A stretch of 32,835 nucleotides of DNA from Bacteroidota bacterium. Its GTDB lineage: Bacteria; Bacteroidota; Bacteroidia; NS11-12g; UBA955. This document shows positions 869 through 5,942 of the stretch, in pieces (positions within the stretch are counted from its first letter, which is position 1; every line of letters begins with the position of its first letter). The position numbers were made by a program, and so were the translations under genes. The notes under the pieces were generated by a model, which saw only the letters and a program-made list of their open reading frames with translations, had not been told where the DNA came from and searched no databases. The DNA is taken from NCBI GenBank assembly GCA_016868785.1, contig VGFS01000025.1, forward strand, positions 1-32,835, read 5' to 3'.

Positions 869-2293
869 TTGAAGCACTACAGCCGGATTTCATCAATTCG
901 GGAAGACCTGAATGCGGGCCACATTTCATGTGTGTCCATGGTAGAATATTACCTAAAGAATATTGAATCCCAGCAGCATTTGAATGCGTTTTTGGAGGTT
1001 TGGGGCGACGAGGCTATCGAACGAGCTAAGGGCATCGATGAGAAAGTAAAAGCAGGCACTGCAGGTCGATTGGCTGGCTGTGTGATTGCTTTGAAAGACG
1101 TGTTGGCGTACAAGGATCACCGTGTAGGATCTTCTTCCAAGATATTGGAGGGGTTTACATCGATTTATTCTGCCACCGTGGTTCAGCGATTGTTGGGTGA
1201 AGACGCGATTTTTATCGGTCGTACCAACTGCGATGAATTTGCGATGGGTGCGAGCAACGAGAACAGCGCGTTTGGTCCGGTATTGAATGCTGCGGATCAC
1301 ACCCGCGTACCGGGTGGTTCATCGGGCGGAAGTGCAGTGGCTATTCAGGCGAAGATGGCTCATGCCGCTTTGGGTAGTGATACGGGTGGATCAATTAGGC
1401 AGCCGGCAGCGTTTACGGGAATATACGGCTTGAAACCCACGTATGGTTTGATATCTCGTTGGGGACTTTTGGCTTATGCATCGAGTTTTGACCAGGTTGG
1501 ACCCATGACGCAGAGTTTGGAAGACGTTGTGTTGTTGACAGAGATCATGGCAGGTCCGGACGGACAGGACGCCACGGTATATCAACAAGCTGCGCCAAAA
1601 TATGACATGCCCAAAGCGCCGGTTAAAGCAAAATTTGCGGTGATGACGCAGGCGTTGTCTGAGGATGGCATTGATGCGGAAGTTCGGGGCATGATGCTTT
1701 CGTTGATTGGCAAATTGGAGGCGGCGGGCCACGAGGTGACCTATTTCGATTTTCCCTTGTTGGATTATATGGTACCGGCCTATTACGTGTTGACTACGGC
1801 TGAGGCATCAAGTAATTTGTCGCGTTATTCCGGCATGTTGTACGGCAAGCGCAGTGAATCGGCCCATGATTTGGAGTCGACCTATACTTTGTCGAGAACG
1901 GAAGGTTTTGGCGAAGAGGTGAAGCGCAGGATCATGTTGGGTACGTTTGTACTAAGCAGTGATCAGTACGATGCTTATTATGATAAAGCCCAGCGGGTTC
2001 GTCAGGTGATTCGCACGGAAACGGAGAAGGTGTTGGCGGGTGTGGATGCGATTTTGTTGCCTACAACGAGTACGCCGGCGTTCAAGTTGGGTGAGAAGGC
2101 GGCCAATCCGGTGGCGATGTACATGGCGGATTTATTAACGGTCCAGGCCAATTTGGCGGGTAACCCGGCGATTTCTATTCCAGCGGGAACCACCAAAGCG
2201 GGCTTGCCGATAGGGGTTCAGTTGATGACGGGTTTGTTGGAAGAGAAGGCCCTTTTTGATTTATCGAAATTGTTGGAAGAAACGTTGGGATGA
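869..2293 (+). CDS. gatA: Asp-tRNA(Asn)/Glu-tRNA(Gln) amidotransferase subunit A
   Basis: A full-length 474-residue amidase-signature protein, the glutaminase subunit of GatCAB, which converts mischarged Glu-tRNA(Gln) or Asp-tRNA(Asn) to the correct amide form. The Ser-cisSer-Lys triad is intact: K76 in ALKDV, S151 in PGGSSGGS and S175 in GSDTGGSIRQPA. These sit three residues earlier than the K79/S154/S178 known from the S. aureus enzyme. The start is TTG: the next in-frame ATG would remove 23 conserved residues, and AAGGAG stands five bases before the TTG. gatB and gatC are not in the window, as is common where gat genes are scattered. The stop overlaps the next start as ATGA, which suggests translational coupling. 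High confidence. Confidence 0.96.
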   Translation: MKHYSRISSIREDLNAGHISCVSMVEYYLKNIESQQHLNAFLEVWGDEAIERAKGIDEKVKAGTAGRLAGCVIALKDVLAYKDHRVGSSSKILEGFTSIYSATVVQRLLGEDAIFIGRTNCDEFAMGASNENSAFGPVLNAADHTRVPGGSSGGSAVAIQAKMAHAALGSDTGGSIRQPAAFTGIYGLKPTYGLISRWGLLAYASSFDQVGPMTQSLEDVVLLTEIMAGPDGQDATVYQQAAPKYDMPKAPVKAKFAVMTQALSEDGIDAEVRGMMLSLIGKLEAAGHEVTYFDFPLLDYMVPAYYVLTTAEASSNLSRYSGMLYGKRSESAHDLESTYTLSRTEGFGEEVKRRIMLGTFVLSSDQYDAYYDKAQRVRQVIRTETEKVLAGVDAILLPTTSTPAFKLGEKAANPVAMYMADLLTVQANLAGNPAISIPAGTTKAGLPIGVQLMTGLLEEKALFDLSKLLEETLG

Positions 2294-3567
2294 GTTTGAG
2301 AATTCGCATCTTCATAGTGTGGGTAATGGTATGTGGTTTGGCCATCGGTCAGAACGATGTGCAGTTGCGACTTAAAACGTTGGAAGTAAGGGGTTTGCCA
2401 TTTTTTTACAACAGCGATATCGAGCAGACCATTGCCGATTGGTTGAAGAACGAAAACGAAAGCACATCTATTTTTTATGGGAGGATGCAATATTACGGCG
2501 AGCAGATTGATCGCACAGCGGTGAAGTATGGGTTGCCTTGGTTTGTGAAGTACATTCCGGCGGGTAGTTCGGGGTATGAGCCCAGGTATCGAGATGAGAG
2601 TGGTGCTTCTGGCATGTGGCCTCTGAGTTATACGATTGGGAAGAAGTACAATTTACGTCAGACGGCTCTTTTCGACGAGCGTAGAGACCCCAAGAAATCC
2701 ACGGAGGCGGCGTGTTTGTATTTGCGTGATTTGTATGTGATTTACGGCGATTGGTTGAAGGTCATTACAGCGTTTCACATTGGTCCTATTCGGTTGAATC
2801 AGGTGATTCACGAGATTGGGGGCGACCTTGATTTTGCCCATATTTACGAAGCTTTGGTGCCTCAGGAGCGGTTGCCAGTGATTCAGTTTTACGCGGCGGT
2901 AGCGGTGTTGCATCATGCGCAGCAGTATGGCATTCGGGCCATGGAAGTGGAGCGCACAGATGCGGTGGCTGTGGAGTCGATTGGTATGGTGGTACCCTTT
3001 GCGGTATTGAACGAAAAAATTGGGGTGGGGTTGTCGGATTTGCGCAACTTAAACCCAGAATTCCGGGCCGATGCGGTGCCTTATTTGGGGGAGCCATGCG
3101 CGTTTAAATTGCCCAAGAAATATGCCGTTATTTATACTGCCAAGCGCGATTCTTTGTCGATTTGGATAGGCAGCAAGCCCACGTTATCGCAGCGATTGTC
3201 GCGTGTTGACACGGTATTGGTTGGCGATGGTGATTCGGCCGTGTCTATGGTGGTATCGCGGAGTGATCAGTCGGTAACGGATTCTTCAGGGGTAACGCCT
3301 CCGGTGCCAAAATCGATTGCGGGCAGTACGGAGGGCACGAAAGTATGGGTTTATTACAAGGTAAAATCTGGTGATGCCGTTTACACCTTGAGTGATATTT
3401 TTGATTGCACGCCACAGCAGATGAAATCGTGGAATCATTTGCACAGCAATCAGTTGAAGGTGGGAAGCTTGTTGAAGTTTTACGTGCCTGCCAAGCGCAA
3501 AGCGTATTATGTTAAGTTGAATTCATTCACAATTGCTCAGAAGCGTAACATTGCCGGGGCTGACTGA
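2290..3567 (+). CDS. Exported LysM protein with degenerate MltD-like lytic transglycosylase domain
   Basis: A 425-residue protein with an N-terminal signal peptide (hydrophobic to about residue 20), an SLT/MltD-like domain (about 60-200) and a C-terminal LysM repeat (about 352-402, starting YYKVKSGDAVYTL). Family landmarks survive, such as GASGMW, DERRDPKKSTEAA and YLRDLY. The catalytic positions do not: where family 1 lytic transglycosylases read LPxxES(x)YxP, this protein reads IPAGSSGYEP, so Ser93 replaces the catalytic Glu. The Gln of GLWQF is Pro111, and the Asn of AYNAG is His163. I infer a peptidoglycan-binding protein without normal cleavage activity, perhaps a scaffold or regulator in the periplasm. 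It overlaps gatA by ATGA and the next gene by TGATG, so it sits inside a tight operon. Domain assignment is good; loss of activity is inference. Confidence 0.85.
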   Translation: MSLRIRIFIVWVMVCGLAIGQNDVQLRLKTLEVRGLPFFYNSDIEQTIADWLKNENESTSIFYGRMQYYGEQIDRTAVKYGLPWFVKYIPAGSSGYEPRYRDESGASGMWPLSYTIGKKYNLRQTALFDERRDPKKSTEAACLYLRDLYVIYGDWLKVITAFHIGPIRLNQVIHEIGGDLDFAHIYEALVPQERLPVIQFYAAVAVLHHAQQYGIRAMEVERTDAVAVESIGMVVPFAVLNEKIGVGLSDLRNLNPEFRADAVPYLGEPCAFKLPKKYAVIYTAKRDSLSIWIGSKPTLSQRLSRVDTVLVGDGDSAVSMVVSRSDQSVTDSSGVTPPVPKSIAGSTEGTKVWVYYKVKSGDAVYTLSDIFDCTPQQMKSWNHLHSNQLKVGSLLKFYVPAKRKAYYVKLNSFTIAQKRNIAGAD

Positions 3568-5942
3568 TGAAACGCCTGTTACTATTTTTAGGGTTGATTG
3601 CGGTTGGTGGGGCTTTGCGGTCGCAAAGTGCAACGGTTTGTGCGTTTACGCCTGAGCCGGTGGTGGTGGATGGTTTGTTGAATGAGTCGGTTTGGCAAAG
3701 ATCGCCATCCTTGGGCTACAAGATAGATGAGCGCGGTAGATTTGTTTGGCAGCGGGATGGCTCCATTGATTGGTTTACACAGCAGTATCCTTACGATACA
3801 TCGCGGTCTGAGACGCAAACGCGGTTTGCGATGGCGTTTGACGAAAAATACTTGTACGCAGTTTTCATTTGTGAAAATCGCCATCCGGAAAAGCCTTATG
3901 TGATTCAGAGTTTAAAGCGGGATTTCAGCGTCACGAATACCGATGCGGTGGTATTGACCTTGAGTCCGTTCAACGACGGCCAGAATGGATTTTCTTTTGG
4001 GGTTACGCCGTTCAATTCGCAGCGCGAGGGGTCGGTAGAAAACGGCGGGGGATTTGGGGTGACTACGGCTTGGGATCAGGTTTGGTATTCCGCAACCCAG
4101 AGAATGGGTGATTATTGGGTGGCGGAGGTGGCCATTCCCTTCAACAGTTTGCGTTTTAATCCGATGCAAAAACTGTGGCGATTCAATGTGGCTCGTTTTG
4201 ATTTTAAGAACAATGAAGTGTCGTCTTTCGCGCGGGTTCCAAGAAACTTCAACATCAGTTCGTTGGTGTTTTGCGATTCGATGTTCTTCAGCAATCCTGC
4301 GGTTCAGGGGGATGTTTCAGCGTTGGCGGCGGTGAAGAAAAACAAAAATTTGGTGTTGATTCCGTACGTGAGTGGGATTGGACAACAGGGTCAGTCGGGC
4401 AGGCGCACCAACCTTACCGACCCAGTAACGGCCGCGCCGAAATTGGGTTTTGATGCCAAGGTTGCGTTGAGTAGGAGTTTGAATTTGGACGTTACGGTGA
4501 ATCCCGATTTTGCACAGGTGGATGTGGATGTGCAGCAGGTGAACTTGACGCGGTATAGTTTGTTTTTTCCGGAGCGACGTCAGTTTTTCATTGAAAACAG
4601 TGATTTGTTTGCCAGTTTTGGGTTTCGGCAGATTCGTCCATTTTTCTCACGCCGCATTGGTTTGGGGAGTCAGGGACTTGTTCCCATTGTGGGCGGTGTG
4701 CGGATGTCGGGCAAAATCGGCAGCAACGTTCGCTTGGGTCTGATGAACATCACTACGCAATCACAAGATTTGATGTCGAGCGGGGGTGTTATTCCCGCCA
4801 CGAATTATTCGGTATTTGCCTTACAGCGCAAGGTATTTACGGCGAGCAATGTGGCGGTGATTGCGGTGCATGATCAGCGATTGAATACGTTGGTGAATTA
4901 TGTAGACCGACAGGGGAGGGTGGCACAATCGGGCGACTACAATTCGGTGTTGGGCACGGAGTTCAATTTGTTAACCAAAAGCAATCTGTGGGCGGGAAAG
5001 GGTTTTGTGCAGAAGTCGTTGTATCCAGGACTTCGCTCAGGTGCGGGATATGCCCATGCAACTTGGCTGCGTTATCGGAGTTTGAATTGGACGGCGATGT
5101 GGAACCATGAGTACGTGAGCAAGCAATTTGTGGCGCGCACGGGTTTTGTGCCTCGGACGGACAATTACGATCCAGTATCGGGGAAGGTGATTAAATACGA
5201 TTACTGGCGCTTGGAGCCGATGTTGACGTACAGCATTTATCCCAAGCGGAACAAGCACATCAATCATTATGGATTGGTTTTGAGCAACAGCAGCTATTAC
5301 GACAGCAGTTTTCATGGTACGGAATCGGAGTCTGAGTTGGGATTGGATTTGAATTTTCAGAACAGTTCATTGTTTCATGTGAGTGTTGATCATTCATATT
5401 ATGATTTGTTTTTGCCTTTTGATCCTTTGGATGAGGGCAAGTTGTTTTTTGGGAAATATCAATGGACCGGTGTTCATACAGAGTTTACTACCAATAACCG
5501 CAAGCCATTGAGCGGGTATTTGGAGGCGAGTTATGGTGGGTATTTTATGGGGCGGAAGGCGGAGTTTGGCGGAAATTTATCGTACCGGGTTAAGGGTGTG
5601 GGCAAGCAAAAATTGCCGTTGTTATTGTTCGCGGCGAATTTCAATCACATCAATGTGTTGATGGGAGATTCTTTCACTTCTGCGATCAATTTGATTGGAT
5701 TTAAGACGGAGTACAGCATCAATACAAACACGTATTTCACGGGGTTTGTGCAATACAATACCCAATCAGAGAAGATGAATGTGAATTTGCGGTTCCAGTG
5801 GAGATACCGTCCGATGAGCGATTTTTTCTTGGTATACAGTCAGAATTACGACCAATTCCAATCGGTGTTGCCGAATCGATCGTCGTATTTTGGACCATCG
5901 TTCAGGTCCTTGGCCGTGAAATGGGTGTATTGGTTTAATTAA
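3567..5942 (+). CDS. DUF5916 / carbohydrate-binding family 9-like outer-membrane protein
   Basis: A 791-residue protein with a signal peptide ([20 protein letters not shown]), a CBM9-like N-terminal domain (about 30-240, starting [13 protein letters not shown]) and a long C-terminal half with alternating aromatic and polar strands, as expected for an outer-membrane beta-barrel. The DUF5916 hallmarks are present: [15 protein letters not shown] from residue 312 and [12 protein letters not shown] around 333-344. It ends in WVYWFN. The biochemical role of the family is unknown. It is the last gene of the tatA-gatA operon-like run and overlaps the upstream gene by one base. Its stop shares the bases TTAA with the stop of the convergent AIM24 gene. 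Family call is secure; function is open. Confidence 0.9.

Follow-up and report, generated by a model that had tools for sequence, protein, structure and literature searches.

A gatA-linked MltD-type protein of Bacteroidota lacking the catalytic residues of lytic transglycosylases

Inactive relatives of cell-wall hydrolases and the locus beside gatA

Regulatory roles are well established for inactive cell-wall hydrolase relatives of the LytM class, to which DipM, EnvC, NlpD and ActS belong. To our knowledge, little is known about autolysin control in Bacteroidota. DipM, which combines LysM with an inactive LytM domain, binds and stimulates the lytic transglycosylase (LT) SdpA (PMC10336132), while in vertebrate lysozyme g, a member of the same fold family as LTs of the MltD type, duplicates without activity have been retained beside intact copies (PMC4243810). 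The MltD fold itself is thus already known, as is, in degenerate LytM factors and vertebrate lysozyme-g duplicates, the retention of genes whose products have lost their activity; our search of the open-access literature found no description of a conserved inactive family of bacterial LTs.

The window, which is the whole stretch of DNA analysed (32,835 nt; contig VGFS01000025.1, assembly GCA_016868785.1), carries a gene for such an LT-like protein, hereafter the pseudo-lytic transglycosylase (pseudo-LT); its features are collected in Table 1. We refer to the window's family as f1, to the second family of the order as f2 and to another family of the class as f12. MltD of Pseudomonas aeruginosa (8rhe, 8rhf, 8rhi) has the same catalytic-domain fold and the same order of LT domain, LysM and LysM, but its active site consists of Glu, Gln and Tyr-Asn where the pseudo-LT has Ser, Pro and Phe-His. 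With the degenerate LytM factors (DipM and the EnvC/NlpD/ActS class) the pseudo-LT shares the design of a LysM-bearing periplasmic protein in which an inactivated hydrolase domain is kept by selection; the LytM endopeptidase fold differs, however, from the lysozyme-like LT fold, and the resemblance is one of functional analogy only. The inactive vertebrate lysozymes g (LygA/LYG1 and others) have a fold that is a structural neighbor of our model and, likewise, replaced residues in the active site while an intact copy persists, but they are animal proteins without LysM and do not reside in a cell wall.

Table 1. Window coordinates of the pseudo-LT gene, its parts and its neighbors
Feature	Position	Strand	Evidence or remark
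gatA, upstream, overlapping pair (ATGA)	869..2293	+	TIGR00132 E 8.4e-161
Pseudo-lytic transglycosylase CDS	2290..3567	+	ATG, 425 aa + stop; Pfam SLT + LysM; orthologues
Probable signal peptide, residues 1-20 (MSLRIRIFIVWVMVCGLAIG, then Q)	2290..2349	+	sequence inspection
GH23/MltD-type transglycosylase fold without active site, residues 34-213	2389..2928	+	AlphaFold model; P. aeruginosa MltD match
Ser93 at catalytic Glu position	2566..2568	+	codon AGT
Pro111 at Gln of GLWQF	2620..2622	+	codon CCT
Phe162-His163 at Tyr-Asn of AYN	2773..2778	+	codons TTT, CAC
Divergent LysM-like module, about residues 223-277	2956..3120	+	strand-helix-helix-strand in model; no Pfam match
Disordered fast-evolving linker, about residues 290-350	3157..3339	+	pLDDT <50 at 297-348; dN 0.29-0.55 vs close congeners
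LysM domain, residues 356-396	3355..3477	+	PF01476 E 9.6e-10
Conserved C-terminal tail, residues 404-425 (YYVKLNSFTIAQKRNIAGAD)	3499..3564	+	motif Y..[IL]N.M...QK across families
DUF5916 gene, downstream, overlapping (TGATG)	3567..5942	+	PF19313

Domain architecture and active-site residues

According to our analysis, the fold is of the SLT/MltD type and not LytM. Pfam SLT (PF01464) matches residues 81-174 with E 1.4e-11 and 44.4 bits (cut-off 21.3), and the C-terminal LysM domain scores 38.7 bits against a cut-off of 20.9, while the score in the MltD equivalog model NF008050, 89.3 bits, lies far below its cut-off of 508. A hydrophobic N-terminus similar to that of the window's protein is found in every pseudo-LT orthologue with a complete start. 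In the AlphaFold model, for which 23 orthologues served as input, the transglycosylase domain has a pLDDT of mostly about 90 or more (87-97 in ten-residue blocks), and its best structural match is P. aeruginosa MltD (Foldseek E 6.7e-16). The alignment of the two by VIA-align gives Z 22.1 and an rmsd of 3.8 over 252 residues; it spans residues 31 to 288 and so takes in the divergent second LysM-like module.

In the 42 intact Bacteroidota MltD-type proteins that we aligned, columns 93, 111, 162 and 163 read E, Q, Y and N, respectively, each in 42/42, and since all four columns are invariant there, the substitutions are far from what chance would produce. Neither the catalytic Glu of the ES motif nor the Gln of GLxQ nor the Tyr-Asn of AYN is present in the pseudo-LT. 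Because these residues, which define GH23 catalysis, were tested and are absent, the protein should not be classed among the lytic transglycosylases, although automatic annotation gives all these proteins that name. An earlier reading of the letters alone (the sequence-only reading) had counted three active-site changes and had described the rest of the fold and a LysM as intact, the gene being locked between gatA and a DUF5916 gene by overlapping starts and stops. Alignment and codons confirm Ser93, Pro111 and His163, but a fourth change, from Tyr to Phe at 162, had been overlooked; the MltD-type fold (Pfam, model, Z 22) and the LysM stand, while the second LysM-like module at about 223-277 had been missed. 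The position of the gene is borne out by the ORF ends, TIGR00132 and PF19313: gatA stops at 2293 and the pseudo-LT ORF starts at 2290, hence the 4-nt overlap, and the DUF5916 ORF starts at 3567, hence the 1-nt overlap.

The residues that replace the active site differ among families. In f1, position 111 is mostly Pro and 162 Phe, and the active-site Q, F, Y and N have given way almost uniformly to P111, L112, F162 and Arg163, His163 of the window being a species-level variant where congeners and the clade carry Arg and other members S, Y or K. In f2, Gln111 is mostly retained and Phe162 present, and f12 retains Tyr162 with mostly Met at 111. Asn163 has been lost nearly everywhere, the column reading N in the degenerate f2 copies L164, L237, L238, L240 and L241 and in the f1 copy L227. 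On the other hand, G105, G108, W110 and R131 are kept by all proteins in the alignment with the intact enzymes, and D129-E130 by nearly all. To judge from this alignment, the core of the fold stays while the active site goes, by differing routes after a common loss of Glu. The gatA-linked copy of one f2 genus, g12 (L164, L237, L240, L241), is very degenerate, with the LysM intact and, in L164, the copy tested, no Pfam SLT match. Since residue 93 varies freely and Pfam SLT no longer matches, the function of the groove may be relaxed in the most degenerate f2 copies.

Distribution, constraint and origin

Orthologues occur in all sampled genera of f1 and in f2. Position 93 was read at 85 loci in 84 of the 108 genomes of the order, covering about 20 genera; the remaining order genomes were unread, without a strong match or incomplete, and two nearly complete ones, G076 and G081, have the intact copy only. 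None of the 84 genomes has Glu or Asp at this position, where S, T, N, L, I, V, A, Y, F and W occur. A class-wide search of 395 genomes brought out f12 as one further family, with a copy in 15/15 genomes, none of which has Glu or Asp (0/15) but L, A, V, S or I instead. As the residue at 93 is otherwise free to vary, the conserved trait is the absence of the acid. The sequence-only reading had asked whether a Ser/Gly variant marks a conserved clade, and named close relatives with Glu as counter-evidence; such relatives were sought and none was found in the 84 order genomes. The clade-wide absence of the acid holds, but Ser itself is not conserved, S, T and N being genus-level states at a site that otherwise varies.

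Nonsynonymous distances were taken against four close congeners (80-86% identity), with gatA available in two of these comparisons. Within the protein, constraint is tightest on the dead SLT domain (dN 0.044-0.062, against 0.29-0.55 for the linker and 0.07-0.17 for the C-terminal LysM), which evolves about as slowly at nonsynonymous sites as gatA (0.057-0.060); the comparison rests on nonsynonymous distances, and omega is rough, because synonymous changes are close to saturated. Strong purifying selection acts on the SLT domain, and both it and the LysMs are maintained. The earlier proposal that selection keeps an inactive domain is thus supported, both by the 0/84 order genomes with Glu and by the low dN of the domain.

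The pseudo-LT gene follows gatA in most of f1, in f2 and in f12, one large f1 genus (g18) having the two unlinked. In other families of Bacteroidia, gatA stands beside an intact LT with Glu, Gln and Tyr-Asn at nine loci (L150, L152, L153, L156, L157, L185, L193, L195, L196); for each of the genomes concerned the class-wide search lists a single MltD-type match at E 1e-60, and for f12 genomes two. Near the fetched intact copies of f1, f2 and f12, no gatA lies within the few kilobases around. The gatA-LT pair is old. The tail motif Y..[IL]N.M...QK, of which the window's own YVKLNSFTIAQK is a one-letter variant, ends about 19 residues before the stop in 17/18 f1, 12/12 f12 and 4/7 f2 proteins and is absent from 16 intact copies of f1, f2 and f12 genomes. 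In five of the nine gatA-linked intact LTs, which share the gene order after gatA with the pseudo-LT but have an intact active site and are longer, the motif (as INxMxxxxK) is internal and followed by another, terminal LysM. Gene order and tail together suggest that the pseudo-LT descends from a gatA-linked LT, minus the last LysM.

With the columns of the four active-site residues excluded, three trees place all pseudo proteins on one side of a single branch, with SH-aLRT values of 96, 99 (ultrafast bootstrap 62) and 99, and the clade of f1 and f2 pseudo-LTs is firm (99/96). One origin for the pseudo-LTs of f1+f2 and of f12 is favored but not proven, and the root is not secured; the outgroup-rooted tree used P. 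aeruginosa MltD and the LT L003, which spans only 25% of the columns. Origin as a sister paralogue of the intact copies of the same families is disfavored for f1/f2 (p-AU 0.027) and weakly disfavored for f12 (p-AU 0.063).

Several single loci deserve mention. L197 (family f40) and L189 (family f35) are single LT-like proteins without the catalytic Glu, one adjoining gatA and the other an SGNH gene; given these two, for which membership of the same clade is not claimed, loss of Glu may have occurred more than once. L225 (G079:C101) is a second, f12-like pseudo-LT with gatA inside an f1 genome, by contamination or transfer. In a congener, the pseudo-LT gene (L017; G002:C158:12122-13413) is split over two frames, through sequencing error or a real break. 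The record CAMBTR010000004.1 (L038), titled Chryseobacterium gleum, contains a gene of the window's genus, and its title looks wrong.

Proposed role and competing readings

Besides an intact MltD (L001), the genome from which the window comes encodes another LT whose motifs are intact (L003), so that cutting has not been lost from this genome, and the other pseudo-LT genomes that we checked likewise have an intact MltD-type paralogue at a separate place. Since the cutting residue has been lost widely and preservation is best in the dead domain, the protein probably owes its retention to a helper role in binding the cell wall, not to enzyme activity. We consider it quite probable that the pseudo-LT is a periplasmic MltD-fold protein which no longer cleaves peptidoglycan and is kept to bind it; we infer both steps from sequence, and the binding from the fold together with the LysMs. 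In crystals, inactive E-to-Q mutants of LTs still carry glycan or inhibitor ligands, according to the titles of the records 4hjy and 6fcq. The two LysMs and the groove would hold glycan strands, on which the secreted protein would sit without cutting, and the conserved surface of the domain and the tail could dock a partner. By analogy with degenerate LytM proteins, the pseudo-LT would most likely be a localizing or regulatory factor for active autolysins. We also put forward, tentatively, a broader proposal, namely that the pseudo-LTs are pseudoenzymes of ancient standing, a family with a single origin from a gatA-linked MltD of Bacteroidia, whose members may act as strand-binding activators or guides for active autolysins or O-acetylation enzymes and would be the LT counterpart of the degenerate LytM factors. 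A clade that extends over several families, with a dead domain under gatA-like constraint, is a target for studying how Bacteroidota restrain or aim the cutting of their wall.

Continued cutting of glycan strands by the pseudo-LT, with another residue or an altered mechanism, would fit the preserved groove fold and the acids E97, D102 and E104, which the window's genus has close to the former site. Nevertheless, the clade alignment contains no substitute invariant acid in the SLT domain: position 97 is E, Q, N, A or D among relatives, and the only acids that are invariant, D129-E130 of DERR, are common to active enzymes. At the level of sequence, the absence of an alternative acid, on which the sequence-only reading depended, is therefore upheld, and with the active-site Tyr and Gln lost too and at least 10 residue types at position 93, we regard continued cutting as quite improbable. 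A decaying gene under relaxed selection, as the variability of position 93 and the split copy of G002 (perhaps a sequencing error) might suggest, is hardly credible when the ORF is intact in nearly all genomes, the dN of the SLT domain is as low as that of gatA and the gene is retained across at least three families; we rejected it on constraint and breadth.

A further reading is that the old groove now serves a ligand that is not peptidoglycan glycan, be it a protein or another saccharide, with the LysMs merely anchoring the protein to the wall; the near fixation of P111, L112, F162 and Arg163 in f1 is what a new function might require, but there is no clade-wide new signature, as Gln111 is kept in f2 and Tyr162 in f12, and we hold this to be improbable. 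We also deem it unlikely that the pseudo-LT serves a system for peptidoglycan O-acetylation or de-acetylation as its glycan-binding subunit, offering the strand to an SGNH enzyme that an MBOAT acyltransferase supplies, a task for which the LT site would be dispensable. An SGNH/GDSL gene does lie directly 3' of the pseudo-LT gene in f2 (e.g., L105:9169-10746, and other f2 loci), and loci of Bacteroidales type have the order intact LT-SGNH-MBOAT. The window's family, however, has in the SGNH place DUF5916, which follows the pseudo-LT gene in f1 only; the SGNH proteins of its own genome are encoded elsewhere and have LysMs of their own, and the SGNH matches are below the Pfam cut-off. Since the partners differ by family, DUF5916 in f1 and SGNH in f2, the neighborhood names no single partner for the peptidoglycan-binding helper that we prefer.

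The Bacteroidales-type loci L058:7752-12378 and L078:7734-12653 show the order parA-parB-DUF5683-MltD-SGNH-MBOAT or much of it (domains checked in L058 and partly in L078), which places an intact LT next to a possible peptidoglycan O-acetylation pair. The two SGNH proteins of the window's genome are long, with terminal LysM domains (L198, G000:C1 near 112390; L199, G000:C18 near 16621), and one of them is encoded just after an MBOAT gene.
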